This document shows, piece by piece, positions 5,066-57,666 of a DNA stretch of 64,000 nucleotides. Under the pieces are notes generated by a model. The model saw nothing but the letters and a program-made list of their open reading frames with translations, did no database searches and was not told where the DNA came from. This DNA is from Streptomyces hygroscopicus (GTDB taxonomy: Bacteria > Actinomycetota > Actinomycetes > Streptomycetales > Streptomycetaceae). Positions within the stretch are counted from its first letter, which is position 1; each line of letters starts with the position of its first letter. The DNA lies in the NCBI GenBank assembly GCA_002021875.1, contig CP018627.1, positions 2,728,001 to 2,792,000 of the forward strand, in the 5' to 3' direction. The position numbers were made by a program, and so were the translations under genes.

Positions 5066-5110
5066 AGGAGGTGTTGTGGCAGGAGGTGTTGTGGCAGGAG
5101 CTGTCGCGTC
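5066..5110. repeat. 15-bp tandem repeat downstream of the binding-protein gene
   Basis: The unit AGGAGGTGTTGTGGC occurs perfectly twice (5066-5080, 5081-5095), then degenerates (5096-5110 and beyond). It lies in the 248-bp gap 4861-5108, which holds no convincing gene, just past the stop of the minus-strand gene at 5109. It looks like slippage repeats. Confidence 0.7.
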
Positions 5111-6698: not shown

Positions 6699-6704
6699 GC
6701 TTCC

Positions 6705-8831
6705 TCACTGACCGGAGATAGGGAAGGGGCGCTTCTTCCGTGCCGCCGCGGGCCAACTGCGCGCGGCCTGACCCAGGACGGCGTGCCAGGACGGGTGGCG
6801 CGGGGAGAGGTAGGCCAGCTCTTCGCCGACCGCCTTGCACATATCGGGGTCCGGCTCGGCGTGCGGCTCGGACACATGCCACAGGGCGTGCAGCAGCCGG
6901 TTCACACAGCGCTCGATCTCATGCAGTTCGGCGTACCGGCCGTCGTGCGCGCCGAGGGCGATCTGCATCCGTTCGTCGGTCCACTCCGCGGCCGGTGGGG
7001 TGGGCGCGGTGGCGGCGTACCGCAGGCACAGCAGCCAGTGGGCGGCGGCCTGGGCGTCCTTCTCCGACTGGAACTCCTCCGTCAGCATGGCCACCACCGT
7101 CTCCGCATTTCCGGCCGCGAGGGTGTGCCGCAGGGCGTCCGCCTCGCCGCTCTCCCCGCGCTGGGCGTGGTGCATCCGCAGAAAGCGGTGGATGTCCTGC
7201 CAGCTACGGCCGTCCTCGGCCCGTGACGAGGTGCGGCGCGCCTCGTGCACGAGCAGCGTCCGCAGCAGCGTGTCGGCGACCAACGGCTGGTCGGGCGGGG
7301 TGAGTTGCTGCCACTGCTGCTCTTCGAGGTAGTCGGTGGCGGAGTTGGCGGGGAGCTGGTCCGGGCCCTGGAGACGCAGATTCTCGGCCAGCGCCTCCGC
7401 CGCGGTGCTGTCGCGGGCGAGTGAGAGCAGGGTCAGCCGGTCGCGCTGGCGCCGGTTGGGAAGCAGCCGCTCCAGGAGCGCTTCGGTGACGGCGCGGCCG
7501 TCCTTGGCGTGCAGTTCGAGGAGGTCGCGCGGGCCCACGCCGCGGCCCCGCTTGGTGGCGTCCAGGACCGCCGCGCACAGGACGGTGGTCACCGCGGGAT
7601 GCCCACCGGTCAGGGAGTGCACGGCGGAGGCCAGATAGGGGTGGAGCGGCCGGGCGGGCCAGTCCGGCACCAGGAGCGGAAGGATGTCGTCCCGGCTCAG
7701 CGGGGTGAGCGGCACGGCGAGCAGTCCGGCGGACGGGGCCAGGCCCTTGCGCTGCCAGCCGGAGGACTTCACCAGGTCGGGCAGGTCGCGGCGGATGGCG
7801 GCGGGCGCGTTCTCCGGTAAGCCGCCGAGGCGGGTGGCCACGACGACGAGTTCCTCGTGGTCGTGGCGTTCGGGCAGCGCGCGGTGCTCGAGCAGCAGGT
7901 CGAGGAAGTCCTGCCCCGGCGGGCAGTGGGCGTCGTCGAGCAGGATGAGCGGCCAGGGCTCCCGGTTCCACCGCTGCAGCCTGCCGTAGGAGGAGGCGAC
8001 ATCGTGGAGGAAGGCGGCCATCAGGCTCTGCTCGGCCGCGTGCCGGTAGTCGCCGCCCCGCTGGAACCACTCCCCGAGCAGCACCAGCGGATCCTGGCCG
8101 TCCGCGCCCCGTGGGAAGCGCCGCCGGTACCACTCCTGTGCCGCGGCCGGCTGATACCGGTCGGTGTACTCCGCCACCACCGCGGCGGTGACCGAATCCC
8201 GGCCCCACTCCGCGTCGGTCTGCGCGCCGATCGTCTCCAGACGGCCCTCGACGGCGGTGGCCCAGGCGTGTCTCAGCGCGTTCTCATCACCGTCGGCGAG
8301 GCGGCAGGCGAGCAGCAGCCGGGCGAACGTCAGGCACGCCACGTCGCGCTGCTCGCCATTGCCGCGGTACCAGCCGGAGACGGCGAACAGGCCGGGCACC
8401 AGGACCGGGAAGCGGCGGCGCACATCGGGGGCGAGCCCGCACACCAGCTCCACGAGGATCTCGACGAGGGTCGAGGCGGTGGGGGCTCGGCCGTCGGCCG
8501 GGGCGGGCGGGAAGGTCTCGGGTTCGGTCGCCACGGCGCGGACGTGGGCCAGCGGCAGCCGGTCCCGGTAGCGCGCGGCGAGCTCTTCGAGCACCGCGCT
8601 GCGCCCCATGCCGTGGTATCCCGTCACCAGCACCACGGGCAGGTCGCCCTGGTGCTCCCGGCCCACCCGGGACCGCTCGTCGTAGGCCAGGCCGGTCAGC
8701 CGGGGAACGAGCGAGCGCAGCAGAGAGTCCCGGCCATAGAGCGGTGACCCTTCCGATACGCGCATCCTGCTGCGTCCCGCCTCAGTCGTCCTCTGCTGCC
8801 CGGCAGCCGTGACCTCGGAGACGGGCGGCAC
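6705..8831 (-). CDS. STAND-like P-loop NTPase with degenerate Walker A
   Basis: A 708-aa cytoplasmic protein. A P-loop-like motif, GYHGMGRSA (residues 71-79), has Arg where the invariant Lys is expected. A Walker B-like WPLILLDDAHC lies near residue 300, and the order SPLYGRDSLL-P-loop-long helical region resembles STAND/AAA+ regulators. The C-terminal half is helical without recognisable repeats. The GTG at 8831 is used; an ATG at 8765 (MRVSEGSPLYGRD) is a possible alternative. Its stop lies 6 nt before the membrane receptor gene, so the two are co-translated and probably act together. The Arg substitution may mean slow or absent ATP hydrolysis. Function is not established. Confidence 0.8.
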   Translation of the reverse strand: MPPVSEVTAAGQQRTTEAGRSRMRVSEGSPLYGRDSLLRSLVPRLTGLAYDERSRVGREHQGDLPVVLVTGYHGMGRSAVLEELAARYRDRLPLAHVRAVATEPETFPPAPADGRAPTASTLVEILVELVCGLAPDVRRRFPVLVPGLFAVSGWYRGNGEQRDVACLTFARLLLACRLADGDENALRHAWATAVEGRLETIGAQTDAEWGRDSVTAAVVAEYTDRYQPAAAQEWYRRRFPRGADGQDPLVLLGEWFQRGGDYRHAAEQSLMAAFLHDVASSYGRLQRWNREPWPLILLDDAHCPPGQDFLDLLLEHRALPERHDHEELVVVATRLGGLPENAPAAIRRDLPDLVKSSGWQRKGLAPSAGLLAVPLTPLSRDDILPLLVPDWPARPLHPYLASAVHSLTGGHPAVTTVLCAAVLDATKRGRGVGPRDLLELHAKDGRAVTEALLERLLPNRRQRDRLTLLSLARDSTAAEALAENLRLQGPDQLPANSATDYLEEQQWQQLTPPDQPLVADTLLRTLLVHEARRTSSRAEDGRSWQDIHRFLRMHHAQRGESGEADALRHTLAAGNAETVVAMLTEEFQSEKDAQAAAHWLLCLRYAATAPTPPAAEWTDERMQIALGAHDGRYAELHEIERCVNRLLHALWHVSEPHAEPDPDMCKAVGEELAYLSPRHPSWHAVLGQAARSWPAAARKKRPFPISGQ

Positions 8832-8889
8832 CGCTCCCCCGAGACATCAGCCGCTGACATCCGTACCAACTACGCCTACATTCATGAAC

Positions 8890-8904
8890 TTACCCGTTGG
8901 GTAA
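8890..8904. promoter_or_regulatory. Short inverted repeat upstream of the P-loop protein gene
   Basis: TTACCC and GGGTAA form perfect arms around GTT, in the A/T-richer 129-bp gap between the NACHT gene and the STAND-like gene. It could be an operator for the two-gene unit or a weak terminator for the NACHT gene. Confidence 0.4.
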
Positions 8905-8960
8905 ACATCCCACCAGGTAATCGCGGCACCGGGTGTGAGCCGGGGGTGAGGTTGTGCCGG

Positions 8961-11900
8961 TCAGGGGTGCGGGTATATGTCGAGTTCCACGCTGTCGGGG
9001 AGCGAGTCCGCGCCGCGGATCTCGCCCGGGTAGACGAGCCGCACCCGGCGCAGCCGGGGCAGCCCGGCGAGGGAGGCGAGATCGAGCTCCGCGACCTGCG
9101 ACAGATGGATCTCCTCGAGCCCGGGAAGGCGCCGGGCGATCCGCCGCAGCGGTACCGCGGAACCGGCCCTGGCCCATACATCCAGGTGCGTGACCTGGGG
9201 GATCTCGGTGCGGGGGGCGAACAGCAGCATGCTGAGCTGCTGCGGCGAGAGCGTCAGCTTGCGCAACTGAGGCAACTCGGCGATGAGGGAGCCCCATTCG
9301 TCCGGCGCCAGGCGCTCGCTGGCGTCCTGCAGACGCAGCTCCTCCAGCCCCCGGCACTCCACGATCCCCGCGAGCTGCGCCGCCGACGACGGCAGGGAGA
9401 GCAGCCGCAGCTCGGCGGGGCGCGGGAGGTCGGGCAGACCGCGCCAGGGCACCTCCGGTCCGACGAGCAGCCCCTCCAGCCGGGGGCAGTCGGCCAGCTT
9501 CAGCAGGGGCTCGAACTGGGGGAGGTCCCGCAGCTCCAGCCTCCGCAGACGGGGCAGCCGGGTCAGCGGCGTGGGGTCCTTGACGTTCCGGCATCCCTGC
9601 AGGGCGACCGTCTCCAGCTCGGGGTAGGCGGAGAGCAGCGCGAGGTCCTCCAGTTGCAGAGTGCCCCGCAGGCGCAGCTCGCGCAGGTGGCGCGGGTCGA
9701 GCGCGGCGCGGATGTCCTCCGGGGCGAAGTCGCCGTGCAGGCCCACGCGTTGATAGCCGGAGATGGTGCGCAGCGCCTCCAGCTCGGCGGGTGAGCGCAC
9801 CGTGACGATCTCCTCGGGGGCGGTGTCGAGGAGCGGCCGTACGATCTCCTCCGCGTACACCTTCGTGTCGAACCGGTCCCAGTGGGCGAGGAGTTGGGCG
9901 CGCACCGCGGGCTGGCCGGTGCCGAGGAACTCCCGGAGCCTGGGGATGGCGGCGTCCCCGCCGATCTGGCAGATCGCGTGGACGGTGGCCAGCTCCTCGT
10001 CGCCCTCCAGGTCCTTGGCGTCGGGCAGCAGGCCGAGGAGCAGCGGGCCCGTCTGCGCCAGTGACCTGGCCTCCCGCAGGCTGCGCGGCGGCAGCAGCCG
10101 GGCGGCCCGGTCCTCGATGGCCTCGCGCACCGTCGGCTCCAGGCGGGTGGCCTGTTCGAGGGAGGCGAGGGCGAGGAGCCGCAGCCGCGCCTGGACCGTG
10201 GCGTCCTGCTCCCGGTCGCCCCGCTCGCGCAGGCGGGTCAGCAGGTCGGCACGCTCTTGGTGTCGAGCCTGTGCGACGGCCATCTGCACCACGTCCTCCC
10301 ACTGGTCCAGGTGTGCGTTGTTCACCAGCATGCCCATATCGCGCTCTTCCAGCACGGCCCTGGCACCCAGGAAGTCCTGGAAGGTGCGGTGGATGAAGTC
10401 GACCGCGCCCGGGGCCGGTTCGCGCAGCAGACCGGAGCGCTCCAGCAGATGCTGCAGGGCCTCTTCCGCCGTTCCGACGTCCGCGAGGCGGGGGACGGAG
10501 GGCTGCAGCCGCCGCACCACGTTCACCGCGTCGGGGCGGTCCAGTTGCGTCCGCTCGTTGCGGATCAGCCAGTACGCGAGCCTCTGGAGCGGCTCGGTGG
10601 CCGACTTCTGGTCCAGCGCCGGACGGCCGCGGCCGTAGACCTCGCGCTCCAGGTCGCGGCGCTCCAGGAGCATGGAGAGCGCCGCCTCGTAGAGGGAGGC
10701 GCGGCCCTGGGGCAGGAAGCCGCGCCGCTCCCGGTGCAGGGCGCAGATCAGGCCGCACATCAGCGGATTGGTCGCCAGACGGCTCAGTTCGGGGCTGCTG
10801 CGCAGGGACAGCGAGAGGGACTCGCCGAGCTCCTGCGAGGCTCCGGCCGCGGTGTGCCAGCGCCGGATGAACTGCTTCATGTCGGCGGGCCGCATCGCGG
10901 CGAGCGCGAACTCCTGGAAGCCCTCGCGGGCCAGCCAGCCCCGTTCGAGGGCCGAGGGGCGGGAGGTGAGCAGCCACAGATTGCCGGGGAAGACGGCGAG
11001 CAGCTTCTTCAGCCAGGCCCGCACACGGCTCCGGTCGTCCTTCGGGATCTCGTCGGCCCCGTCGATCAGGAGCACGCCGCGCCCGTGCCGCAGCACCCGC
11101 GCGGCCCAGCCGTCGGGCTCGGTGCCCACCAGCGGGCAGCCGATCCAGCGCAGGAAGTCCTCGGGCATGGGCAGTTCGGTGTCCTTGCGCGCCAGGGTGC
11201 GCAGCGGCAGGACGAAGGGGACGCGCCCGAACAGCTGCGACAGGCCGCCCGGCACCCGCTCCTGCTGCGCCGTGGAGAGGGCCAGCCACTGGACGAGGGT
11301 GGTCTTGCCGGTGCCGGCGACGCCGCGCAGCAGGATGCGCTCATGGCTGGCGAAGACCGCCTCGGCGGGGCCCGCGGCCCGCTCGGCCTCGGTGTCCCGG
11401 TCGGCGCCGGGCTCGCCGTTGACCACCGGGACCCGGTCGGTGCCGTCGCGGTACGGCCTGGCCTCCAGGCTCAGATAGGCGGTCTCCAGCGGCCAGTCCT
11501 GGCCGTCCGGTTCCCGGAGGTCGACGCCGTAGATCGTGAGCCTGCCGTGGCACTCGACGACGTAGCGCGCGTACTCCTCCTCGAACTGGATGTCCTGGTG
11601 GCTGATGTCCGGCAGCCGCCGCAGGATTGAGTCCAATTTCTCGCTCTGCTCCCGGATCTCGCGGCTCTGCTCGATCTGGGCTCGGGCCGCGAATCCGGGC
11701 CGCTGGCTGAAGAAGCGCATGAGATGGAGGCAGGCCGTCTCCAGGAGCCGGTCGTGGAAGCGGGCGGCGTCGTCGCTCAGCAGCCTGCGCGTGTCGGGGC
11801 CCGCGCGCCGGGACAGCTCCGCGGCCAGCCGCTCGGGGCCGAGCGCGAAGGCGTGGACGTCGTCCATGTCGAGATCGCCGAGGGCGTGCAGGGTGCGGGT

Positions 11901-12179
11901 CAGCGCCTGCCCGACGGAGTCGTGCTCGTCGGGCCCGATCGGCGGATCGTGCGGCCCGGCGGCCCGCACGGCGCGGCGGACCAACTCGCGGGCGAGCTTG
12001 TGCAGATCGTCCTCGGTGAGAGTGCGGTGCTCCCGGGCGAAGGACACCAGCCGGCGGATCGGCACGGGCCGCTCGCCGTACTCCGCCCCCGGCGCGCTCG
12101 CGGGCGGCAGCAGCAGCCGTTTGACCACCGGCACGACCACTGCCGATGCGATCCGCAGCCCCACCGTGCCGCCGTCCAC
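8961..12179 (-). CDS. NACHT-domain NTPase with C-terminal leucine-rich repeats (bacterial NLR-like)
   Basis: A 1072-aa protein. Residues 1-200 form a helical N-terminal region (DDLHKLARELVRRAV, FHDRLLETACLHLMRFF) resembling the helical domains that precede bacterial NACHT modules. The NACHT domain follows: Walker A GVAGTGKTT at 286-294, Walker B GVLLIDGADEIP at 368-379, then LWLLTSRPSALERGW and the winged-helix region ending in VDFIHRTFQDFLGARAV. From about 790 to the end, repeats of LRxLxLxxL type (LRELRLRGTLQLEDLALL, LRRLELRDLPQF) form a leucine-rich solenoid. This matches NLR-type immune sensors; related bacterial NACHT proteins defend against phage. No separate nuclease effector is visible. 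The start is ATG 12179. Confidence 0.92.
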   Translation of the reverse strand: MDGGTVGLRIASAVVVPVVKRLLLPPASAPGAEYGERPVPIRRLVSFAREHRTLTEDDLHKLARELVRRAVRAAGPHDPPIGPDEHDSVGQALTRTLHALGDLDMDDVHAFALGPERLAAELSRRAGPDTRRLLSDDAARFHDRLLETACLHLMRFFSQRPGFAARAQIEQSREIREQSEKLDSILRRLPDISHQDIQFEEEYARYVVECHGRLTIYGVDLREPDGQDWPLETAYLSLEARPYRDGTDRVPVVNGEPGADRDTEAERAAGPAEAVFASHERILLRGVAGTGKTTLVQWLALSTAQQERVPGGLSQLFGRVPFVLPLRTLARKDTELPMPEDFLRWIGCPLVGTEPDGWAARVLRHGRGVLLIDGADEIPKDDRSRVRAWLKKLLAVFPGNLWLLTSRPSALERGWLAREGFQEFALAAMRPADMKQFIRRWHTAAGASQELGESLSLSLRSSPELSRLATNPLMCGLICALHRERRGFLPQGRASLYEAALSMLLERRDLEREVYGRGRPALDQKSATEPLQRLAYWLIRNERTQLDRPDAVNVVRRLQPSVPRLADVGTAEEALQHLLERSGLLREPAPGAVDFIHRTFQDFLGARAVLEERDMGMLVNNAHLDQWEDVVQMAVAQARHQERADLLTRLRERGDREQDATVQARLRLLALASLEQATRLEPTVREAIEDRAARLLPPRSLREARSLAQTGPLLLGLLPDAKDLEGDEELATVHAICQIGGDAAIPRLREFLGTGQPAVRAQLLAHWDRFDTKVYAEEIVRPLLDTAPEEIVTVRSPAELEALRTISGYQRVGLHGDFAPEDIRAALDPRHLRELRLRGTLQLEDLALLSAYPELETVALQGCRNVKDPTPLTRLPRLRRLELRDLPQFEPLLKLADCPRLEGLLVGPEVPWRGLPDLPRPAELRLLSLPSSAAQLAGIVECRGLEELRLQDASERLAPDEWGSLIAELPQLRKLTLSPQQLSMLLFAPRTEIPQVTHLDVWARAGSAVPLRRIARRLPGLEEIHLSQVAELDLASLAGLPRLRRVRLVYPGEIRGADSLPDSVELDIYPHP

Positions 12180-12325: not shown

Positions 12326-13054
12326 ATGGATGTTTCCGGAACAGCTTCCGCCGATGAAAACACCAGGCCGCGGGCGGTCATCAAGACCACCGCGCGCCAA
12401 CTGCTGGTGAAACTGGGGGCCGGAGGGCTGACCCTGGACGCCGTCGCCCGTGAGGGCGGACTCGCCGTCAGCGATGTGGAGGCCGTCTTTCCGCATCGGG
12501 ACGACCTGCTGACCGCGCTGCTCATCGACGCCTACAACGACTCCGGCGCCGCGATGGAGCAGGCCGATCAGGCCGCCAGGGACGCCGGCGCGCCGGCGGG
12601 CGCGCGGCTTCTCGCGGCCACCCGCGCGCTACGGCGGTGGTCGTTCGCCAACCCCGCCGAGTTCACGCTGGTCTACGGCTCGCCCGTGCCGGACTACCAC
12701 GCCCCGCAGGACACGGTCCCGCCCGCCTCACGCACCCCCGCGGTGCTGGCCGGCATCGTGCGTTCGGCGCTGGAGGCCGGTGAACTCACCGCGCCCCGGC
12801 GTCAGGTGCCGGGGCCGCCGCTGCTTCTGCCGGAGGCCGAGGCGCTCTTCGGCGGGGTGCCCGAGGCTCCGTTCTCGGACCTCATCGAGCGCGGCATCGT
12901 GCTGTGGAGCAGCCTGGTCGGGCTCCTGGTCTTCCAGGTCTTCAGCCGTACCCATGACAGCGTCCGGGACGAGACCGCGTTCTTCGACTACGCCATCGCG
13001 GTGGCGGCCGAAGGAATCGGACTCGTGGTTCCCTTGGGCGAGCACACCGACTGA
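12326..13054 (+). CDS. TetR/AcrR-family regulator
   Basis: A 242-aa TetR-type regulator. The DNA-binding domain is at about residues 16-62 (LTLDAVAREGGLAVSDVEAVFPHRDDLL), with a C-terminal region of the WHG type often found in actinobacterial TetRs (WSFANPAEFTLVYGSPVPDY). It is divergent from the NACHT gene across 146 bp and lies about 29 nt upstream of the MAB_1171c-like membrane protein gene, so it may control either. The ATG at 12326 has no strong ribosome site and might be leaderless. Ligand unknown. Confidence 0.9.
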   Translation: MDVSGTASADENTRPRAVIKTTARQLLVKLGAGGLTLDAVAREGGLAVSDVEAVFPHRDDLLTALLIDAYNDSGAAMEQADQAARDAGAPAGARLLAATRALRRWSFANPAEFTLVYGSPVPDYHAPQDTVPPASRTPAVLAGIVRSALEAGELTAPRRQVPGPPLLLPEAEALFGGVPEAPFSDLIERGIVLWSSLVGLLVFQVFSRTHDSVRDETAFFDYAIAVAAEGIGLVVPLGEHTD

Positions 13055-13083
13055 ACCGTTCGGCACCTGTGGGGGAAAGGGCC

Positions 13084-14238
13084 GTGACCACCATCAAGAC
13101 TCTCTGCTTCGTCATCGCGGCGCTCTCGTCGTATGCCGCGCTGATCTACCGACTGTTCCAGATCAGGCGCAGCTGGCGGGACACCGCCTACCGCACACTC
13201 GTGATCACCCTGCTGCTGCAGTGCCTCACCTTCACGATGGGTGCCTTCGCCATGGGGAGCGAGCGCTTCCTGGGCGTCGGCAACCTCGCGATCCTGGTGA
13301 TGCATCTGTCGGCGGTCGCCTTCTGCGTCAGCGCGCAGATCATCCTGCTGCACTGGGCGTCCGCCACCGAGGAGTCGGGGCGCAAGGCCCGCTACTGGCT
13401 GATCATCGGCGTCGCCCTCGACGCGCTGCTGACGGCGCTGTTCTTCATCGCCGACGGCCCCGGGCGGCCGGCCGAGGACTTCAACACCGGGAGCGGCCAG
13501 CCGCTGATCCTCACCTACCTCCTGGTCTTCATGGTCTCCCAGGCGGTTCCGTGCCTGACCATCCTGCGCCAGTGCGTGCCCTACGCCCGGATGGCGGGCA
13601 AGACCTCGCTGGGGCAGGCGCTGCGGATGCTCTCCGTCGCCGCGGTGATCCTCTTCCTCTACTGCCTGGCCAGGGTGGTCAACGTCCTCACGGCCGCGGG
13701 CGGGCTCGACATCGGCGGCTGGACGCTGGCCGCCTCCGTCTTCAGCGCGCTGGGCATCGTCACCCTCTCGCTCGCCCTGACGATCTCCTCCTGGGGGCCC
13801 TCGGCCACCAGGCTGCTGGAGTGGGCGCGCGGTTACCGGTCCTACCGGGCCCTGTATCCGCTGTGGCGGGATCTGTACGAGTCCTCTCCGGACATCGTGC
13901 TGGAGCCGCCCGGGGCCGCGGTCTCCGACCTCAACTACCGGCTCCACCGGCGGGTCATCGAAATACGGGACGGCTGGCGGGAGTTGCGGCCCTATATCGA
14001 CCGCACCTCGGGCGGGGACGACCAGGCGGGCTCCAGGGGGAGCGAGGAGTCCCGGCAGGCGTTCGCCGAAGCGGCGCAGATCAGGCAGGCGCTGCACGCC
14101 AAGCGCACCGGCACCATTCCCGATGACAACGCGGACACCGGCGACTTCGAGGACCGCGACACGGACAACTTCACCGCCGAGGTCGTCTGGCTCACCAAGG
14201 TGGCATCCGCCTACCGGCGGCTCGCCAAAGCGCGCTGA
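13084..14238 (+). CDS. MAB_1171c-type integral membrane protein
   Basis: A 384-aa protein with about seven transmembrane helices in its first 240 residues (TIKTLCFVIAALSSYAALIY, LVITLLLQCLTFTMGAFAM and others), then a cytoplasmic tail rich in charged residues (YRALYPLWRDLYESSPDIVL, LHRRVIEIRDGWRELRPYI). This architecture matches the MAB_1171c-type 'putative transporter' family of actinobacteria, typically found beside XRE regulators and ImmA/IrrE proteins as here; transport has not been shown. The GTG at 13084 is preferred because GGGGGAAAGG lies upstream; GTG 13069 is in frame. A hairpin follows. Confidence 0.82.
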   Translation: MTTIKTLCFVIAALSSYAALIYRLFQIRRSWRDTAYRTLVITLLLQCLTFTMGAFAMGSERFLGVGNLAILVMHLSAVAFCVSAQIILLHWASATEESGRKARYWLIIGVALDALLTALFFIADGPGRPAEDFNTGSGQPLILTYLLVFMVSQAVPCLTILRQCVPYARMAGKTSLGQALRMLSVAAVILFLYCLARVVNVLTAAGGLDIGGWTLAASVFSALGIVTLSLALTISSWGPSATRLLEWARGYRSYRALYPLWRDLYESSPDIVLEPPGAAVSDLNYRLHRRVIEIRDGWRELRPYIDRTSGGDDQAGSRGSEESRQAFAEAAQIRQALHAKRTGTIPDDNADTGDFEDRDTDNFTAEVVWLTKVASAYRRLAKAR

Positions 14239-14245
14239 GAGAGGG

Positions 14246-14282
14246 ATCCCGCCCGGTCTGCCCCCGTCAGGCCGAGCGGGAT
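14246..14282. terminator. Terminator-like hairpin after the membrane protein gene
   Basis: ATCCCGCCCGG (14246-14256) pairs with CCGAGCGGGAT (14272-14282), with one mismatch, followed by TTT. It separates the membrane protein gene from the XRE gene. The rest of the gap 14283-14546 holds GAGCCGGGCC direct repeats (about 14361-14382) and the inverted repeat listed next, with no gene. Confidence 0.6.
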
Positions 14283-14483
14283 TTCCCCCGTGATTCCCCC
14301 GTTTTCCTCTTCCGGGCCGAGCGGGTGGCCCCCGCCCGGCCCAGCTCGGCACAGCCCTGAGAGCCGGGCCGAGCCGGGCCGATAGGACTGACAACCCACT
14401 CGGCCACCCCCGTGAGCGGAGTTAGCTGGCAGCTATCGGCGAGGTCCACGTTGGCGGAGTTGGGCCAGATTGTCAACTGACCG

Positions 14484-14509
14484 CTAATCTGCGAAACTGA
14501 CGATTAGCC
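14484..14509. promoter_or_regulatory. Inverted repeat upstream of the XRE gene
   Basis: GCTAATC (14484-14490) and GATTAGC (14503-14509) are perfect arms 12 bp apart, 37 bp upstream of the XRE start, in a locally A/T-rich stretch. This is a candidate autoregulatory operator of the XRE protein. Confidence 0.5.
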
Positions 14510-14546
14510 GGGGGCAAAGCCGAGGAGGTGAGGGAGGGAGATTCGC

Positions 14547-14987
14547 ATGTCCGAGACTGACGACCGGCCCACGCTGGCAGTGCGTCTGGACAACCTCTTC
14601 AAGACGGTTCGTCCCAAAGGCAGGCACTGGACCAACGCCGAGGTGGCGGAGGAGCTGAAGCGGGCCAACCCCGAGCTCAAGGTCGGGGGTGTGTATCTGT
14701 CGCAGTTGCGGACGGGCAAGCGCTCCAATCCCTCACCGGACCTGCTGGCCGCCCTGGCGCGCTTCTTCGGCGTGTCGGTGGCCTACTTCTTCGACGACCA
14801 GGTCGCCGAGTCGGTGCTCAGCGAGGTCGCCGCCATCGAGGCGCTCCGGCAGGCCGGGGTGCGCGCCGTGGCGATGCGGGCGGCCGGGATGAAGAAGGAG
14901 AACCTCGAGGCCATCACGACCATCATGGACCAGTACCGGCAGCTTCAGGGCCTTCCGCCCGTCACCGACACCTCGGACCAGGAATGA
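14547..14987 (+). CDS. XRE-type helix-turn-helix regulator
   Basis: A 146-aa cytoplasmic regulator. The helix-turn-helix region spans about residues 8-78: NAEVAEELKRANPELKVGGVYLSQLRTGKRSNPSPDLLAALARFFGV in sequence parts, a Cro/C1-like fold adapted as in BldD-type proteins. The C-terminal helices (RAAGMKKENLEAITTIMDQY) probably dimerise. ATG 14547 is preceded by GAGGGAGGGAG. The ImmA/IrrE-like protease gene begins 13 nt after its stop, the classic arrangement in which a metalloprotease inactivates a paired repressor. That relationship is inferred from ImmR/ImmA and DdrO/IrrE. Confidence 0.9.
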   Translation: MSETDDRPTLAVRLDNLFKTVRPKGRHWTNAEVAEELKRANPELKVGGVYLSQLRTGKRSNPSPDLLAALARFFGVSVAYFFDDQVAESVLSEVAAIEALRQAGVRAVAMRAAGMKKENLEAITTIMDQYRQLQGLPPVTDTSDQE

Positions 14988-15000
14988 GGGGTGCGGCTGG

Positions 15001-15570
15001 GTGAGGGGCGCCAACAAGGGACGGTCGGCCGACCACGACCGGCGCAGTCAGCTCAAGAAGCTCCGGAAGGCCGGTGCGCGGCGGATCGCCGACCTCGACC
15101 TGCCGGAGGTGGCCGATGTGGCCGAACTCTGCCGCCATCTCGGCGAGGTCCGCGGCCGCCCCATCACGCTGGTCCCGATGCAGATGCCCGCGACGCACCC
15201 GTGCGGCATGTGGGTCGCCGCCCGCGACGAGGACCTCATCTTCTACGACGCCAACACGACCAGCGCGCATCAGGAGCACATCATCTTGCATGAGCTGGGC
15301 CACATCATCTGCTGCCATCGCGGGGCGGGTTGGCTGGACGAGGCGAGCGCCCGCCTCCTTTTCCCCAACCTCGACCCCGACCTCGTGCGTGACATGCTCC
15401 TGCGCGCGACCTACGACGACGTCCAGGAGCAGGAGGCGGAGATCATCGCCTATCTGCTCTCCCAGCGGGTGGGCGGCGCCGAGGAGCGGCATGGCACCGC
15501 CCCGGCCGAGAACTCCGGGGCAGCCGGACAGGACGCCATGCTCAGCCGGATCGAACGCACCCTGATCTGA
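15001..15570 (+). CDS. ImmA/IrrE-family metalloprotease (toxin-type partner)
   Basis: A 189-aa protein with the zinc-protease signature HELGH at residues 97-101 (IILHELGHIICCH) and a downstream EQEAEIIAYLLS segment supplying the third ligand, as in ImmA/IrrE (DUF955) enzymes. These cleave XRE-type repressors in response to a signal, derepressing linked genes. The GTG at 15001 is selected because AGGGG lies about 10 nt upstream and it starts just after the XRE stop at 14987. The two genes form one unit. The convergent polyketide synthase-like gene ends 22 bp after its stop. The natural substrate is presumed to be the XRE protein at 14547-14987. Confidence 0.92.
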   Translation: MRGANKGRSADHDRRSQLKKLRKAGARRIADLDLPEVADVAELCRHLGEVRGRPITLVPMQMPATHPCGMWVAARDEDLIFYDANTTSAHQEHIILHELGHIICCHRGAGWLDEASARLLFPNLDPDLVRDMLLRATYDDVQEQEAEIIAYLLSQRVGGAEERHGTAPAENSGAAGQDAMLSRIERTLI

Positions 15571-15592: not shown

Positions 15593-18500
15593 TCATCCCC
15601 CGGCGGCTGCCACCTCCTCGGCGAGGATCGCCACGGTGCGGCGGATGTCGTCCTCACGGTGCTCGCTGGTGACGAAGAACCGCAGCCTGGCGAGCCCCTC
15701 CTCGACGGCCGGGTGGAAGATCGGATCGGCGATGACACCGCGCTCGAACAGCCGGTCCGCGACGCGCAGGGTCCGCGCCGAGTCGCCGAGGACACACGGC
15801 ACGATCGGCGTGTGGGCGCTGGAGCCGGTCGCCAGACCGGCCGCGGCGGCCAGGCCCAGGAACAGCTCCGCGTTGCGCCGCAGGGCGGTCACCCGGTGCG
15901 GTTCCGCGAGGATCAGCTCGGTGGCGGCCAGCGCCGCGGCCGCGTTGGCCGGGGTCAGGCCGACGCTGTAGACGAAGCCGGGCAGCGTATGCCGCAGCCA
16001 CCGCACCATCCGGGCCGAGCCGCCGAGATATCCACCGCAGCTGGCGAAGGTCTTGGAGAGGGTGCCCATCCACAGATCCACGCCGGACCGGTCGACGCCG
16101 AAGAACTCGCCCACGCCACGGCCGCGTTCGCCCACGGTGCCGATGCTGTGCGCCTCGTCCACCATCAGCAGGGCGCCGTAGCGCCGCTTCAGCTCGATCA
16201 CGGCGGGCAGGTCGACCAGGTCGCCGTCCATGCTGTAGGCGCCCTCGACGGCGATCAGCACCCGTCTGAACCGGGACCGGTTGCGCCGCAGCGCGTCCTC
16301 CAGCGCGTCGATGTCGTTGTGGGGGAACGGGCGCCGCGCCGCCCCGGACAGGGCGCAGCCCTGGAGGATGCTGTCGTGGGCGAGCGCGTCGTGCACCACG
16401 AGGTCGCGCGCGCCGACGAGATGCCCTATCGCGGTGACATTGGTGGCGTGGCCGCTCACCAGTGCCAGGCAGTCGGGGACGCCGAGGAAGTCGGCGAGCG
16501 CCCGCTCCAGCCGTACGGTCAGCTCCCGTTCGCCGGAGAGCACCCGGCTCGCGGAGACCGAGGTGCCGTACCGGTCCACCGCCTGGTGCACGGCCTCGTT
16601 GACCGCCGGATGGCCGGAGAGCCCGAGGTAGTTGTAGCTGCCGAAGGACAGGTACGGCCGTCCGTCGATCATGGTCGTGTCGCGGATGTTGCCCTGATGG
16701 ACCCGGAAGTACGGGAAGTCCGCGCCACTGCCGGCGATCGCGCTCAAGCGCTCCTCGAACTGCCGCACCTCGGGGAAGTCATCGGCGCGGGCACTCGCCG
16801 CGTCCCAGTCCGCCCGCGTCTGCTGGGGCAGCGGCGCACCGGCGGCCGGCTCCTGCGCGAGGTGCGGATCGACCAGCGCGACCAGCCGTTCCACTGTGAG
16901 GTCGGGCGAGAAGATCTCCTCGGTGCGGAATCCCGGTATGCGCTTGCCGATGTTGACCTCCAGCTCCTGCAGCATCAGGGAGTCGAAGCCGAGGTCGGTC
17001 ACCAGCCCCATCCGCTCGGTCAGGTCGGCGAGCGGGAAGACGCCGGTCCGCGACAGCTCTTCGAGCACGATGGACCCGGCGGACGCCCCGTCGGCCCGCG
17101 CCGCCGCGGGCGAGCCCGCCGGCCCCTCCCTCATCGCCCCGAGGTCGTGGGCGGTGCCCTCGTCCTCGGGAGCGCGCGCCGACTCGTCCACCACCCAGTG
17201 GTGGCGTGGGGCGAGCGGGCTCGGCGGCAGGGTGATGGGGGGTATGCGCTCCCTTACCGGGCGAAGCCCCTCGCCGGTGACCGCGCGCCGCGCGAGCTGG
17301 GCCAGCGCGGCCGAGTGCGCGTCGGCGGGCAGCGAGCCCGGCTCCGGTACGGCGGCCTCCGGCGGCTCACCGGGTGGCACGGTGCCGACCGCCAGCCCCG
17401 CCCCGAGATCTCCGGTACGGCCGGCCGCCACGGCCTCGGCCGCCGCGGTCAGCCGGGTGGCGGCGTCGGCGGCGTCCTCCGCCACCAGGGCGAGGCGTTC
17501 GGCGAGGGGAGCCCGGCGGGCCAGGGTGTCCGCCACCCCGGCCAGCGGCGGCCGGTCATCGGCGAGGGTGTGTGCCAGCTCCCGGGCGTAACGGGCCAGC
17601 CCGGCCCGGTCGCGGGCGCTGAGCACCAGCAGCTGCGGACCGCCGTCCGGTGTGGGACGGGCCGGTGCCGTGGCGCACTCCTCCACCACCAGATGGACAC
17701 CGGTGCCGCCGAAGCCGAAGGCGCTCACCCCCGCCCGGCGCGGCTGCCCGGCGTCGGGCCAGCCGGTCGGCTTCGTCGGGATGGTCAGCCGCGCGGCGTC
17801 GAGTCCGGAGCGGTCGGCCAGGTCGAAGTCCGGCTGCGGCGGTATCACCCCCCGGTGCACGGCCAGCACGGTCTTGACGAGTCCGGCGATCCCCGCGGCG
17901 TTGAGCGCGTGGCCGACGACCGCCTTCACCGCGCCGAGGAACGCCGGTGCGCCCCGCTCGCCCCGCAGCTCCCGCAGGACACCGACCTCGACCGGGTCGC
18001 CGACCGTGGTCCCGGTGCCGTGCGCCTCGAGGTATCCCATCGCCTCCGGGGCCAGGTCCGCGTCGCGGTAGGCCCGGCGCAGGGCTCTGAGCTGACCGGC
18101 CGCCTGGGGGTGCATACCGCCCTGCACGGTCCCGTCGTTGGCCGTACCCACGCCCCGGATCACCGCGTAGACCCGGTCACCGGCGGCCAGCGCGTCGGCC
18201 AGCGGGCGCAGCGCCAGGACCCCGGCGCCCTCCCCCAGGACGAAGCCATCGGCCTCCGCGCCGAACGGCAGGCATCTGCCGCTGCGCGAGATGGCGCCGA
18301 TCCGGCACAGCCCCACCAGCAGGTCCGGGGCGAGGATCAACTGGGCGCCGCCCGCGAGCGCGATCCGGCACCGGCCCGCGCGCAGCGCGAACACGGCGTT
18401 GGCCACGGCCATGAGTCCACCGGAGCACGCCGAGTCCAGCGCATAGCTCTCGCCGTGCAGATCGAAGACCGAACTGACCGTGTTCGGCCCCATGTTGAGC

Positions 18501-19069
18501 AGCAGCCCGGCCACCGAGGAGCCGTGCAGCCCGTCCACCGCGCGGACCGTCTCCGGCCACCGGGGGTCGCTCGCCCGTGCCCCGAACTCGCCGCCGGTGA
18601 GCTGGCGCATCCGGATCCGCATGGTGCTGAGTTCGCGGTAGCCGCTCTCGGTGAGCGCCGTGATCACCGAGGTCTCCTCGCGATCGAAGCCCTCGGCCTC
18701 CCATCCGGCGTCCTGGATCGCCTCCCGGGCCAGGTCGATCAGCAGCCGGCCCTGCGGATCCATCGATCTGGCCCGCCGTGGCGGGATGCCGTAGTGCGCC
18801 GCGTCGAAGTGGCCCACGTCCGGCAGCAGGGCCATGGTGTCCGTATAGGCCGCGGACGAGTCACGTAAGTTGTCGCTGAGGAAGGTGGCGGTGCGCCACC
18901 GCGAATCGGGGACGGTGGCGAACTGCGCCCGCGGCTCGTTGAGGAGCCGCCAGTACTGGTTGACGTTGCGCGCCCCCGGGAACCGGCAGGCCATTCCCAC
19001 GATCGCGACGTCATCACGCCGCGTACCAGCTGAACCCACTTCGGATCCCTTCGCTGTCACAGATGTCAC
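15593..19069 (-). CDS. Ketosynthase-ACP-alpha-oxoamine synthase fusion (PKS/AOS hybrid)
   Basis: An 1158-aa multidomain enzyme. A beta-ketoacyl synthase occupies about residues 20-465: active Cys215 in LDSACSGG, His350 in EAHGTGTT, Lys382 and His387 in VKAVVGHALNAAG. A 170-residue linker follows with no acyltransferase motif. An acyl carrier domain has Ser697 in TDLGFDSL. A C-terminal PLP-dependent alpha-oxoamine synthase (about 770-1155) has VDEAHSIG and Lys1006 in TLSKTFAS. The expected chemistry is decarboxylative condensation of an ACP-bound acyl chain with an amino acid to give an alpha-aminoketone, as in BioF, serine palmitoyltransferase and prodigiosin PigH/RedN. The GTG start overlaps the preceding epimerase stop (GTGA). 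The product is unknown. Confidence 0.9.
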   Translation of the reverse strand: MTSVTAKGSEVGSAGTRRDDVAIVGMACRFPGARNVNQYWRLLNEPRAQFATVPDSRWRTATFLSDNLRDSSAAYTDTMALLPDVGHFDAAHYGIPPRRARSMDPQGRLLIDLAREAIQDAGWEAEGFDREETSVITALTESGYRELSTMRIRMRQLTGGEFGARASDPRWPETVRAVDGLHGSSVAGLLLNMGPNTVSSVFDLHGESYALDSACSGGLMAVANAVFALRAGRCRIALAGGAQLILAPDLLVGLCRIGAISRSGRCLPFGAEADGFVLGEGAGVLALRPLADALAAGDRVYAVIRGVGTANDGTVQGGMHPQAAGQLRALRRAYRDADLAPEAMGYLEAHGTGTTVGDPVEVGVLRELRGERGAPAFLGAVKAVVGHALNAAGIAGLVKTVLAVHRGVIPPQPDFDLADRSGLDAARLTIPTKPTGWPDAGQPRRAGVSAFGFGGTGVHLVVEECATAPARPTPDGGPQLLVLSARDRAGLARYARELAHTLADDRPPLAGVADTLARRAPLAERLALVAEDAADAATRLTAAAEAVAAGRTGDLGAGLAVGTVPPGEPPEAAVPEPGSLPADAHSAALAQLARRAVTGEGLRPVRERIPPITLPPSPLAPRHHWVVDESARAPEDEGTAHDLGAMREGPAGSPAAARADGASAGSIVLEELSRTGVFPLADLTERMGLVTDLGFDSLMLQELEVNIGKRIPGFRTEEIFSPDLTVERLVALVDPHLAQEPAAGAPLPQQTRADWDAASARADDFPEVRQFEERLSAIAGSGADFPYFRVHQGNIRDTTMIDGRPYLSFGSYNYLGLSGHPAVNEAVHQAVDRYGTSVSASRVLSGERELTVRLERALADFLGVPDCLALVSGHATNVTAIGHLVGARDLVVHDALAHDSILQGCALSGAARRPFPHNDIDALEDALRRNRSRFRRVLIAVEGAYSMDGDLVDLPAVIELKRRYGALLMVDEAHSIGTVGERGRGVGEFFGVDRSGVDLWMGTLSKTFASCGGYLGGSARMVRWLRHTLPGFVYSVGLTPANAAAALAATELILAEPHRVTALRRNAELFLGLAAAAGLATGSSAHTPIVPCVLGDSARTLRVADRLFERGVIADPIFHPAVEEGLARLRFFVTSEHREDDIRRTVAILAEEVAAAGG

Positions 19070-20007
19070 CCGGCGGTGGACAGTCGTTCACGCCACCACT
19101 CGACCGTCGCCTTGACCTGATCGTCGACGGGGGTGGCGCGCACCGCGAACGCGGCTTCGTAGGCGCTCGCGTCCACGACGAAGGGACGGTCGAACTGGTA
19201 GCGGACCTCCTTCAGTTCGCGCAGCAGCGGGGAGACCAGCGACGCGAGACCCGTCACGGCGGACGGCAGCCTGCGCACCGCGACCGGCCCGGTCTCCGCC
19301 TGCGTGGCGAGGCGGTCGACCATCTCCCGGGTGGACCGCGCGGGCGCCGTCGGTACGTGCCAGGCCCGGCCCCAGGCCCGCTCCTCGCCCGCGACCTCGG
19401 CCAGGGCGGCGGCCACGTCGGGGAGGTAGCTCCAGCTGTGCGGGGTGTCCGGGTCCCCGAGCGAGGAGACCGGCTTGCCGCGCAGCACCTTTGGCATCAC
19501 CCGCGCGGCCAGGTGCCCGCCGTCGGTCACACCGGGCCCGAAGAAGTCCGACGCCCGTACCTCGACCGCCTTGACCCGGCCCTGCTCATCGAGGTCCCGC
19601 GCCTGCTCCCACACGGCGGCGCGCACCCGCCCCTTGGTGCCGGTCGCCGCGAGCGGCAGCTCCTCGGTCATGGGGCCGTCGACCGGGCCGTAGCCGTAGA
19701 GGTTGCCCAGGATGACCAGGACGGCCCCGGTCGCCTCGGCGGCCGCGCAGACCGACGAGGCCAGCGGCGGCCAGTCGCTCGCCCAGCGGTGGTAGGGCGG
19801 TGCGGCACAGTTGTAGATGGCGGCCGCGCCCTGCGCGGCCTCGGTCAATCGTGCGCTGTCCGTCGCGTCCAGCGCGACATGCTCGAGGCCCGGCTCCGGG
19901 CTTCGGCCCGATGTGGTGACAACCCGTACCGAATGGCCCTTTTCGGCCAGCAGCCGAGCGGTGGCCGCTCCGGCGGGCCCGAATCCTATGACGACATGAA
20001 GGCTCAC
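19066..20007 (-). CDS. NAD(P)-dependent epimerase/reductase of the SDR superfamily
   Basis: A 313-aa extended short-chain dehydrogenase-like protein. The N-terminal nucleotide-binding motif is GFGPAGAATA (residues 8-17), an atypical variant of GxxGxxG. The usual YxxxK catalytic pair is not obvious: the region holds LYGYGPVDGP and WEQARD instead, so it may be an atypical member. Its stop overlaps the start of the PKS/AOS fusion by 4 nt, so both are translated from one message and it probably reduces or modifies the aminoketone product. The promoter must lie in 20008-20151, where no gene is seen. Confidence 0.85.
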   Translation of the reverse strand: MSLHVVIGFGPAGAATARLLAEKGHSVRVVTTSGRSPEPGLEHVALDATDSARLTEAAQGAAAIYNCAAPPYHRWASDWPPLASSVCAAAEATGAVLVILGNLYGYGPVDGPMTEELPLAATGTKGRVRAAVWEQARDLDEQGRVKAVEVRASDFFGPGVTDGGHLAARVMPKVLRGKPVSSLGDPDTPHSWSYLPDVAAALAEVAGEERAWGRAWHVPTAPARSTREMVDRLATQAETGPVAVRRLPSAVTGLASLVSPLLRELKEVRYQFDRPFVVDASAYEAAFAVRATPVDDQVKATVEWWRERLSTAG

Positions 20008-20151
20008 GCGCGCACACTAGCGCGAGAATCTGTGGCCATCGGTGCAGACTTTCCGACACCCGTTCGGGTGCGGTGGAAGATGTCGCGATCTCGTCGGTGA
20101 ACGATGGCGTCCGGCCACTGGTGCGGGGGCCGGACGCCACGGCCGGACCGT

Positions 20152-24890: not shown

Positions 24891-26819
24891 TCAGGACAGC
24901 CGGCGGCACAGCAGCGCGTCCGGGCTCCCGGAGCTGCCCACCCGCGTGGTGAAGGCGATCCCGGCGGCGTACTCGTCGGCCGCGCACTGGCCCTTGTAGG
25001 CGCCGTGCGCGAAGTCGCCCCCGGCGGCGTCGGCGGGCCGGTTGTCGGACCGGTCGAACCACACGGTGCGTCCCGTGGTGCCGAGCGGGGTGCGGGCCGG
25101 GGCGCACAGCGCGGCGGACACCCGGCCGCCGCGGCGGCTGTAGCCGATGAGGAAGTGGTCCGAGGGGCACTGGAACTTGGTGTAGCCGGAGGCCCAGTCG
25201 CCACCGGCGGGCACATACCGCTCGTCCGTGACGACCGTATGGGCGGTGCCGGGGGCGCGCGGGTCGTCGGCGCCGGTGTCGGTGCACAGTCCGCGCCCGG
25301 CGGTGTGGCCGAGGCCGATCAGCCGCAACCCGTCGGGGCAGGCGGCCTTGTAGGCGCCCGGATCCCAGTCGCCGTGGGTCCGCTCGATCAGCGACTGCAC
25401 CTGGTCGCCGTGGTCGGTGGCGAGCATGCGCCAGGCGGGGACGGGGTCGACGGGCCCGGTGTGCTCGGGCGCGGTCATCAGCCGCTGCCAGGGCGTGGCG
25501 CGCCAGTCGCCCTGGTCGAGGATTCCGGTGCGGTGGCCCGCGGAGTCGTAGCGCAGCAGCGCCCAGTCGTCGCTGCCCTCCCAGCCCACCAGTGGCCAGT
25601 AGGCGAAGTCGGCGTCGTGGTCGGCGAAGTAGTCGGTGAGGTTGGTGAACCACGCGCGCGGGGCGGTGCCGGTCTCGGCCGAGCCGATGCCGAACTCGCT
25701 GATCCACACGGGTGCGGTGTAGTGCCGCCCGGTGTCCTCGGCGACGAAGAACGCCTGGTCGGTGAGGACTTTGCGGAGCTCGTCGCGGCTGAGGTCCTGG
25801 TACCGGGGGTCGTGGGTCTCGCCGACGCCGGTGGCGCCGCTGTGGCGGGGGCCGGTGTAGCCGTAGAAGTGCGCGGAGTAGACCAGCTTGTGGGCGTTCA
25901 CGAGGGTGTGCGAGAGGGTGCGCGCGGGCGCCAGGGTGGGCCGTTCGTGGGGCAGCCCGTCGACCGGTATCCCCGTCCAGTTGATGCCCTCGATGACGAT
26001 GAGGAGGTCGGGGTTGCCGTCGGTGAGGATGCGGTCGGCGGCTTGTTGCGCGGCGGCGTACCAGTCGTGCGTGTCGCCGAGCCCCCAGTTGGGGTCGTCC
26101 AGGATGTCGCGGCGCACCTCGTTGTAGAGGTCGGCGCCCACGACGCGTGGCTCATCGGCGTAGCGGCGGGCCATGAAGACCCAGTCGGCTATCCAGCGCT
26201 CGGTGGTCTGGCCGCTGTTCCACCGCTCGTTGCCGTCGACTCCGCAGCACCACCGGGTGGTGTTGGTGTGGTTGTTGAGGATGACGGCGAACCCGTCGCG
26301 GCCGAGGGCGGACACCACGGCGTCGAAGATCTGCAGCGGTGTCTTCCCGCGCAGTTGCGGGTTGGCGGCCACGGCACCGTCCGGCACGGTCGCGGCGGCG
26401 TGGATCATCTCGTTGGAGAACGGCAGCCGGATGCTGTTGATGCCGAGCCGGTGGAAGTCGGCGAGCAGCGTCGGCAGGGGGACCCGGTCCAGGCCGAGGG
26501 GTATGCCGTGGGAGTTCTGGCCGGCGTGGTGGTTGGCGGGGTCGTCAACGCTGCCGCTGCCCGTCCACGACCCCTGCGCACCGTCCCAGTTGGCCGACTT
26601 GAGCCGGAAACGGTCGCCCTTGGCGTCGACGATGTACCGGCCGCGGGTGGACAGCGGCGGCTGCCAGGTGTCGGCTGCGGGAGTGGCGGCCGGGGCGGTG
26701 GCGGGGGTGGCAGGCTCGGCGGGCTGTTGCGCGGCGGCGACCGGCCCCGGCGCCGCCGCCAGCAGCGCGAGGATCGCCGCGAGTCCCGTCAGATACCCGA
26801 GTGATCTCCTGATCGGCAT
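24891..26819 (-). CDS. Secreted glycoside hydrolase family 5 enzyme with C-terminal Cys-paired repeats
   Basis: A 642-aa exported hydrolase. Signal peptide residues 1-30 are followed by a Pro/Ala linker. The GH5 catalytic barrel spans about 50-440: acid/base Glu234 in DLYNEVRRD, nucleophile Glu375 in VWISEFG, and an HFYGY strand. The C-terminus has three repeats of about 50-60 residues with the pattern GDW-x-GAYKxxCP...LC, starting near residue 455, 505 and 565, resembling a carbohydrate-binding or beta-trefoil-like module. It should cleave beta-1,4-glucan or related polymers outside the cell. The ATG at 26819 follows GGGGAAGG. It is the last gene of the saccharide locus, 128 bp after GH3. 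Confidence 0.9.
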   Translation of the reverse strand: MPIRRSLGYLTGLAAILALLAAAPGPVAAAQQPAEPATPATAPAATPAADTWQPPLSTRGRYIVDAKGDRFRLKSANWDGAQGSWTGSGSVDDPANHHAGQNSHGIPLGLDRVPLPTLLADFHRLGINSIRLPFSNEMIHAAATVPDGAVAANPQLRGKTPLQIFDAVVSALGRDGFAVILNNHTNTTRWCCGVDGNERWNSGQTTERWIADWVFMARRYADEPRVVGADLYNEVRRDILDDPNWGLGDTHDWYAAAQQAADRILTDGNPDLLIVIEGINWTGIPVDGLPHERPTLAPARTLSHTLVNAHKLVYSAHFYGYTGPRHSGATGVGETHDPRYQDLSRDELRKVLTDQAFFVAEDTGRHYTAPVWISEFGIGSAETGTAPRAWFTNLTDYFADHDADFAYWPLVGWEGSDDWALLRYDSAGHRTGILDQGDWRATPWQRLMTAPEHTGPVDPVPAWRMLATDHGDQVQSLIERTHGDWDPGAYKAACPDGLRLIGLGHTAGRGLCTDTGADDPRAPGTAHTVVTDERYVPAGGDWASGYTKFQCPSDHFLIGYSRRGGRVSAALCAPARTPLGTTGRTVWFDRSDNRPADAAGGDFAHGAYKGQCAADEYAAGIAFTTRVGSSGSPDALLCRRLS

Positions 26820-26946
26820 GCGGCCTTCCCCTGGGTCAGCGGCCGGGCGGTCCCTGCCGGGCAGGTGACTGTAGGACGGCCCGCTCGAAGTGTCGAGTAC
26901 GCCCACACCCGCCGGGCCCTGCCGGGCCGCCGCCGACCGGCCCGGA

Positions 26947-57444: not shown

Positions 57445-57666
57445 GAGTATGCCTCCCGCTGGGGCGAGCCTGCCATGTCGCCGTGCGAGTTCTGAGTCTG
57501 GCAAGGACAGACCGCCACATCAGGTCATTTGCCTACTCGGTCACATATGCCATCTGAAGCGGAAATTAGCTGTCATCTTGCGCGCCAGCTTCCGCGCATC
57601 CGAAGCTGTTTCCGCCACCGCGCCATCACTCGCGGTAGCCGAACCTCGGAACGCCATGGAGCCCTC

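Follow-up and report, generated by a model that had tools for sequence, protein, structure and literature searches.

The window analysed here is a 64,000-nt stretch of Streptomyces hygroscopicus DNA (contig CP018627.1, positions 2,728,001 to 2,792,000), taken from a host genome of 12.0 Mb in one contig. Within it lies the gene of a fusion protein that joins a ketosynthase (KS), an acyl carrier protein (ACP) and a pyridoxal phosphate (PLP)-dependent alpha-oxoamine synthase (AOS) without an acyltransferase (AT). The gene of a short-chain dehydrogenase/reductase (SDR) is its upstream partner, and the SDR end and the synthase start share 4 nt (GTGA). On the opposite strand lie genes for an ImmA/IrrE-like metallopeptidase, an XRE-family regulator, a MAB_1171c-family membrane protein and a TetR-family regulator, and we refer to the whole set as the cassette (Table 1). 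An earlier, sequence-only reading of this DNA covered the synthase and the SDR and left out the conserved neighbours at 12326-15570 on the plus strand.

Table 1. Features of the cassette, in window positions
Feature	Position	Strand	Remarks
TetR-family regulator (TetR_C_33)	12326..13054	+	usual fourth regulatory gene; Pfam, profile search
MAB_1171c-family protein, DUF6545 C-terminus	13069..14238	+	predicted seven transmembrane helices and cytosolic helical domain
Inverted repeat TTAGCTGGCAGCTA upstream of XRE gene	14422..14435	+	well conserved, 48 loci; candidate operator
Inverted repeat GCTAATC-N12-GATTAGC upstream of XRE gene	14483..14508	+	weaker candidate operator; window copy perfect
XRE-family regulator	14547..14987	+	Pfam; conserved along its length
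ImmA/IrrE-like metallopeptidase	15001..15570	+	HELGH; conserved QEQEAE downstream
KS-ACP-AOS fusion protein	15593..19069	-	1158 aa, GTG start; about 1148 aa if later start
PLP AOS domain, residues 785-1152	15614..16717	-	Lys1006
Divergent ACP, residues 656-739	16853..17104	-	Ser697 in GFDSLM; alignment, profiles
AT deletion scar, pre-AT linker fused to post-AT linker (LPPSPLAPRHHWVV)	17210..17437	-	alignment with five AT-containing relatives; linker matches
KS domain, residues about 16-465	17675..19024	-	Cys215-His350-His387; Pfam, alignment
Atypical extended SDR, 313 aa	19066..20007	-	Rossmann GFGPAG; TKGRVRA at the YxxxK place
Promoter-like element TCGCGCTAGTGTGCG of SDR gene	20011..20025	-	conserved; -10-like TAGTGT

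The KS-ACP-AOS order without an AT and the coupling to the SDR through the 4-nt overlap, both proposed earlier, were confirmed by the open reading frames (ORFs), by Pfam and by alignment. Pfam recognised ketoacyl-synt (210.5 bits), Ketoacyl-synt_C (114.5), KAsynt_C_assoc (52) and Aminotran_1_2 (132.3) in the synthase and Epimerase (56.6) in the SDR, and RhiE/CurL-type KS-AT linkers also matched the synthase. The Pfam scan of the synthase found no acyltransferase domain, and no N-terminal acyl-activating domain was found in this protein, whose KS starts near residue 19. Codon composition backs both genes and full-length relatives of the synthase occur in several genera at identities down to 57% (best 80 of 579 loci), so that codon bias and homologues rule out a chance ORF. 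The catalytic residues that the sequence-only reading had named in the KS, ACP and AOS (C215, H350, H387, S697 and K1006) are invariant in all 45 aligned family members, these being the members more than 45% identical and 80% covered. The overlap with the SDR gene was present in 40 of the 60 loci examined, 2 of them duplicates. The top database protein has 1148 residues and is 100% identical over the compared part, which suggests that the synthase may start about 10 codons later; the overlap would then vanish. The ACP reached only 14.9 bits with the Pfam PP-binding model, under the cut-off of 20.8. On profile evidence we consider it a genuine, divergent carrier, because in our set the family ACP profile picks out the ACPs in each of the 18 AT-containing and four RedL-like relatives; the ACP of one AT-containing relative (L080; L numbers denote loci) was recognised by Pfam at 31.9 bits.

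Aligned with five AT-containing relatives, the window protein and three of its AT-less relatives lack the AT between the pre-AT and post-AT linkers. A profile of the AT region had no match to the KS-AOS frame at any of the 63 AT-less loci but matched it at 17 of the 18 AT-containing ones; in L073, the remaining one, the frame is cut at this place. Maximum likelihood trees were built from chosen rows, 16 AT-less plus relatives (37 rows for the KS and 42 for the AOS). The AT-less proteins formed one clade, with support of 100/99 in the KS tree, a phylogeny that the sequence-only reading had called for, and of 100/100 in the AOS tree. A single loss of the AT would most simply account for such a clade in an otherwise AT-containing family; we grade this as the simplest reading only, because the trees are not rooted from outside. 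Among 199 genomes sampled from the genus (E <= 1e-80), the AT-less type was present in 16 (AOS 81-100% identical), a relative with 60-64% AOS identity in 13 and a RedL-like AOS of 47-49% identity in 7, types that are separated by identity only. A search for an AT acting in trans and for a phosphopantetheinyl transferase (PPTase) was also suggested earlier. No discrete AT lies in the window, where none of the genome's 147 FabD-model matches falls, and membership of the trans-AT polyketide synthases (PKSs) was rejected on this ground. Elsewhere, a FabD-like gene adjoins fabH at 4816777-4818764 (175.7 bits, under the curated cut-off of 260.9), and the genome carries four PPTase matches.

The closest relatives of the synthase are actinobacterial KS-AT-ACP-AOS proteins (L071-L077, L079-L089), which have the same domain order apart from the AT and a best segment 49-56% identical (best 80 of 579 loci). 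An MmpL-family homologue (Pfam in L074) lies near the gene in 11 of these 18 loci (L074, L075, L076, L079, L080, L082, L084, L085, L086, L087, L089), which are candidate aminolipid export loci. AOS enzymes condense an acyl thioester with an amino acid and release CO2. RedL of the undecylprodigiosin pathway has the KS, ACP and AOS core in common with the window protein, as well as AOS release with an amino acid, and RedK acts after it. According to two papers, the AOS of RedL uses glycine on a beta-ketoacyl chain to give a 4-keto-2-alkylpyrroline, and RedK completes 2-undecylpyrrole (PMC11188435, PMC12654105). Four proteins of about 2,600 residues (L176-L179), called RedL-like here by architecture and neighbours and not by comparison with RedL itself, combine KS, ACP and AOS with a fused C-terminal SDR and thus hold RedL- and RedK-like functions in one chain. 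The full list, read from L176, is FAAL-ACP-KS-AT-ACP-AOS ahead of this SDR, so that a FAAL, an extra ACP and an AT go beyond the window protein. The four fall in a clade of their own together with a single AT-containing row (L072), and no 7TM (seven-transmembrane), ImmA or XRE match was seen in the four loci read. Their fused SDRs keep YxxxK (PYNRSK), whereas the window SDR has TKGRVRA. The cassette SDR profile matched the SDR domain of L176 weakly (E 1.3e-9). We rejected the SDR as a RedK orthologue on this single weak match and the differing catalytic motif, RedK itself being outside the comparison.

For the AOS domain the closest PDB match was serine palmitoyltransferase (SPT; 212 bits), and CqsA chains reached 104 bits. 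CqsA and LqsA have the fold and chemistry class in common with it, but are single-domain, CoA-dependent enzymes. The analogy with CqsA drawn by the sequence-only reading proved weak, and CqsA-type membership (NF005526) was rejected at 164.4 bits against a cut-off of 428. The choice of amino acid is not decided by the sequence. In Pseudomonas fluorescens, the PKS SgaA and the AOS SgaB make sphinganines with serine (PMC12134224); these are two separate proteins of a two-gene cluster with an iterative PKS, in contrast to the fusion in the window.

The same neighbours recur across the flanks of 74 public loci. Among the 63 AT-less loci, a profile search found the SDR in 59/59 with room for it, ImmA in 58/58, XRE in 57/57, MAB_1171c in 55/62 and TetR in 48/62, the last under a loose room criterion. 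With two duplicates removed (L143 = L041, L145 = L029), the counts were 57/57, 56/56, 55/55, 53/60 and 46/60. The loci were the best 80 of 579 confirmed ones, in which near relatives are over-represented, and the profiles were built from loci later counted; as three copies are split over two contigs (L055/L056, L058/L063, L060/L065), the distinct AT-less copies number 58. Five of the seven MAB_1171c misses were short contigs (L023, L056, L062, L063, L065), and TetR was missing in six Amycolatopsis loci and L027. The 18 AT-containing loci had no SDR, ImmA, XRE or MAB_1171c match, although L073 lacks upstream DNA and L088 has only 1.8 kb of it, and a weak TetR match appeared in three. In the main order, found in most Streptomycetaceae, SDR-KS faces ImmA-XRE-MAB-TetR; in Amycolatopsis the MAB_1171c gene is divergent from the SDR gene; and in L048, L180 and L181 TetR-MAB-SDR-KS are co-directional and face ImmA-XRE. 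The gene content is thus kept through three or more gene orders and with differing outer flanks, and because it survives both rearrangement and relocation, the cassette is most likely a functional unit. Cassette-built profiles gave the cassette MAB_1171c proteins at least 465 bits and other MAB_1171c proteins at most 221, a gap that marks the ImmA, XRE and MAB_1171c triad as a dedicated type. No exporter was seen in the conserved set in our synteny and profile reading of the loci.

The ImmA-like protein scored 17.7 bits with Peptidase_M78, under the cut-off of 22, and a solved-structure search with it gave no match; over 48 rows its HELGH motif is conserved at the 97% level, and acidic residues downstream are conserved as well. 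Both members of an ImmA/IrrE-XRE pair, an HExxH peptidase and an XRE regulator, are present. ImmA is needed for the proteolytic inactivation of ImmR (PMC2701414). The window pair resembles ImmA-ImmR and IrrE in this adjoining arrangement and differs in its link with a 7TM protein and with a biosynthetic operon; cleavage is here a prediction. The MAB_1171c protein scored 334.2 bits with NF042915, over the curated cut-off of 100. Its predicted model has seven transmembrane helices, N-terminus out, in an arrangement of the G protein-coupled receptor (GPCR) type, at a sequence identity of 7-13%. A crude hydropathy count over 44 family members gave seven helices in 18, six in 13, five in nine and four in four; with such mixed counts the seven-helix topology is taken from the profile and the model of the window protein itself.

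The two inverted repeats upstream of the XRE gene suggest that XRE may regulate itself. The longer repeat is the weaker candidate because over 48 loci its left arm is conserved and its right arm only partly, and because a search for it with up to three mismatches also succeeded in 44 of 100 shuffled windows. The SDR gene has its own promoter-like element, and in relatives the start codon usually lies 6-7 nt past the -10-like TAGTGT or a close variant, a spacing that suggests a leaderless SDR transcript. The strict GCTAnnnT pattern was found at this promoter in 42 of 53 loci, in a few of which the estimated start is off and hence the offset larger; several of the other 11 have a near variant. 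No exact second copy of the SDR element exists in the genome, and no regulon was found in this way. A shared XRE operator at the SDR promoter was rejected, since within the mismatches allowed the repeats stand nowhere but upstream of XRE, save for a two-mismatch match at 57566. An Rfam scan of the window gave no match.

The SDR has the Rossmann fold and glycine-rich motif of the extended class, and K125, R127 and R129, within its altered catalytic region, are invariant in 23/23. Its active site is not readable from the predicted model, which is of moderate quality (pLDDT 79, with segments 105-122 and 155-162 below 50). With this model, the best Foldseek match was WbmH (E 3.8e-14). SimC7, a polyketide ketoreductase likewise without the catalytic tyrosine, came at rank 26 (TM score 0.78 by target).

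The outer flanks of the window are common to ten loci (L016-L019, L042, L043, L051, L055, L056, L058), which we take to be the S. violaceusniger group, and L021 shares them in part (amidase). At 5109-12179 on the minus strand is a set that resembles a bacterial NACHT (NLR-like) module and stands beside the cassette only in the strain's near relatives. It comprises an NNH1-NACHT protein of 1072 residues (8961-12179) with LRR matches under the cut-off, then a 708-residue protein with a sub-threshold AAA match and a 529-residue periplasmic-binding-like protein. Adjoining GH5 and GH3 glycosidase genes at 24891-29376, also on the minus strand, form a separate sugar locus.

Taken together, we put at roughly 60% the probability that the locus encodes a dedicated small-molecule synthase with its own regulatory cassette, a reading drawn from sequence comparison. 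Malonyl, or some other acyl group, would be loaded on the ACP from outside, the housekeeping FabD being the simplest candidate for this, and the acyl-primed KS would make a beta-ketoacyl-ACP, from which the AOS would release the chain by decarboxylative condensation with an alpha-amino acid. Were this glycine, cyclisation to a 4-keto-2-alkylpyrroline would follow, as it does for RedL; if there were no elongation, a plain alpha-aminoketone would result. The SDR probably modifies the released product. XRE may control production of the product or the response to it, and ImmA may remove XRE as it does ImmR, perhaps after the membrane 7TM protein has sensed something. Of the condensation with an amino acid proposed in the sequence-only reading, the AOS chemistry stands as the likely release step; simple reduction by the SDR to an amino alcohol is not to be taken for granted, as YxxxK is lacking. 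The signal role suggested there does not follow from the synthase and SDR alone; the 7TM, ImmA-like and XRE neighbours lend it real, still indirect, support.

Several observations weigh against a dedicated synthase with its own regulators. The best models of the AOS (BioF, SPT and KBL) all score under their own cut-offs, L016 and L066 are without MAB_1171c despite room for it, and a search with the mismatches allowed placed no inverted repeat of the XRE type at the SDR promoter. The Mycobacterium abscessus namesake MAB_1171c is described as a transport protein linked to biofilm mass and drug susceptibility, not as a receptor (PMC8707978). Besides having TKGRVRA in place of the catalytic YxxxK, the SDR has close relatives without an adjoining synthase in 14 Streptomyces loci of unrelated context (L233-L235, L237-L247), and these are intermixed in the tree with the 28 chosen cassette SDRs, cassette and orphan labels being hardly clustered (62 of 500 shuffles were as low). 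It seems that SDRs enter and leave the cassette position, or else lose their partners. Scattered in this way, they may point to an SDR that is no biosynthetic step, and an SDR kept without a synthase would suit protection, signal processing or eavesdropping no less well than biosynthesis. The SDR could then be an enzyme for protection against, or turnover of, its own or a neighbour's product, not a pathway reductase. The same leaderless-type promoter precedes seven of the eight solitary SDRs with a located start (six were not located), and in L154 and L248 SDRs with a variant promoter stand with XRE and MAB_1171c genes and without KS-AOS; of the 17 SDR stretches read, 15 gave an SDR, L236 gave none and L249 proved to be a short contig carrying a fragment of KS-AOS. 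However, every testable AT-less locus has the SDR, commonly with the 4-nt overlap, and as SimC7 illustrates, an SDR without the tyrosine can still be a polyketide ketoreductase. We find such a turnover role possible but somewhat doubtful.

A different chemistry is also conceivable, in which the KS merely hands an acyl group on to the ACP without elongation and the AOS turns it into a simple alpha-aminoketone or a sphingoid-like base; this comes near to the proposal of the sequence-only reading. The missing AT and the closeness of the AOS to SPT in the PDB speak for it, whereas the triad for decarboxylative condensation is intact in all 45 members and the AT-containing relatives should elongate, and we regard it as rather unlikely. 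It is less easy to credit a stand-alone metabolite pathway, for an antibiotic, a pigment precursor or a lipid, with ordinary pathway-specific regulators and a 7TM protein that senses stress or another compound, or transports. The transport role described for the M. abscessus namesake is in its favour, the MmpL-type gene near 11 of the 18 AT-containing relatives points to a lipid-like exported product, and MAB_1171c is common in Streptomyces and stands beside varied enzymes (below). Against such a pathway stand the ImmA and XRE of a dedicated subfamily in every testable AT-less locus and the absence of an exporter from the conserved set. XRE-COG2856 pairs have been listed as toxin-antitoxin-like mobile systems (PMC2701414), so that XRE and ImmA might be a toxin-antitoxin-like or mobile-element stress module riding along. 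The gene content is nevertheless conserved across genera and rearranged orders, and no further gene family recurs in the synteny listing, in which neighbours were not annotated singly; such a riding module seems very improbable to us.

MAB_1171c proteins are not confined to the cassette. A match was found in at least 65 of 81 sampled genomes of the genus, and in 149 genomes taken across the phylum it exceeded the cut-off in four, all of this genus. From the matches listed, 40 loci were picked across the score range, and five that proved to be cassette loci were excluded. In 16 of the 35 non-cassette genes a co-directional enzyme gene lies within 30 nt downstream, and the other 19 are without such a partner. 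The enzymes are five amidohydrolases, four P450s, two amidases, two aldo-keto reductases, two PAP2-like proteins, for which the Pfam match is under the cut-off, and one FAD protein; nine were assigned by Pfam directly and seven by BLAST clustering with these, and the ORF behind the P450 of L160 is over-long. This membrane protein is thus often, but not always, paired with a small-molecule enzyme. The MAB_1171c gene overlaps the downstream gene by 4 nt in L138 (amidohydrolase), L140 (aldo-keto reductase), L152 (PAP2-like), L153 (P450), and L157 and L166 (amidases). These may belong to a wider family of enzyme-receptor pairs.

In its fullest form, the dedicated-synthase reading would make the KS-ACP-AOS and SDR product an amino-ketone or pyrroline signal, MAB_1171c its GPCR-fold receptor and XRE a repressor cut by ImmA, through which the receptor would act, and the triads found elsewhere in Streptomyces, many beside another small-molecule enzyme, would belong to a wider enzyme-receptor family. 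We offer this circuit as a speculation that is more probably wrong than right by a good distance, and we know of no precedent for signalling of such a kind. A KS-PLP protein of this type is already in print as an oddity. G2P368 of S. violaceusniger is a 1136-residue protein with a KS and a fold-type-I PLP domain, in which no carrier domain was recognised and the 400 residues in the middle were unassigned (BMC Struct Biol 2013, PMC3870968). It is likely a family member by length, species and domains, its own sequence being outside our comparison; a 1136-residue S. hygroscopicus protein (P0007) is 87% identical to the window protein. Where the middle of G2P368 was unknown, that of the window protein consists of linkers with the AT scar and the divergent ACP. 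We found no study of the cassette in the open-licence literature, subscription journals being mostly outside our reach. To this our analysis adds a carrier domain and an AT scar in the protein, the grouping of the AT-less proteins in one clade, the surrounding cassette, a GPCR-like model of the membrane protein and the pattern of triads beside enzymes. As an enzyme, the synthase is a variant of the PKS-AOS kind; the signalling reading, unproven, would be new in kind.

Were the product the ligand, a bacterial membrane protein of GPCR shape would act through a protease that cuts a repressor, and the ligand synthase would be genetically tagged, which would make the signalling directly testable. 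Should the product be an ordinary metabolite instead, the coupling of one AT loss to a constant regulatory cassette would still mean that a PKS-AOS enzyme has been recruited to a new role, and the cassette synthase would offer a compact system for AOS chain release and loading from outside.

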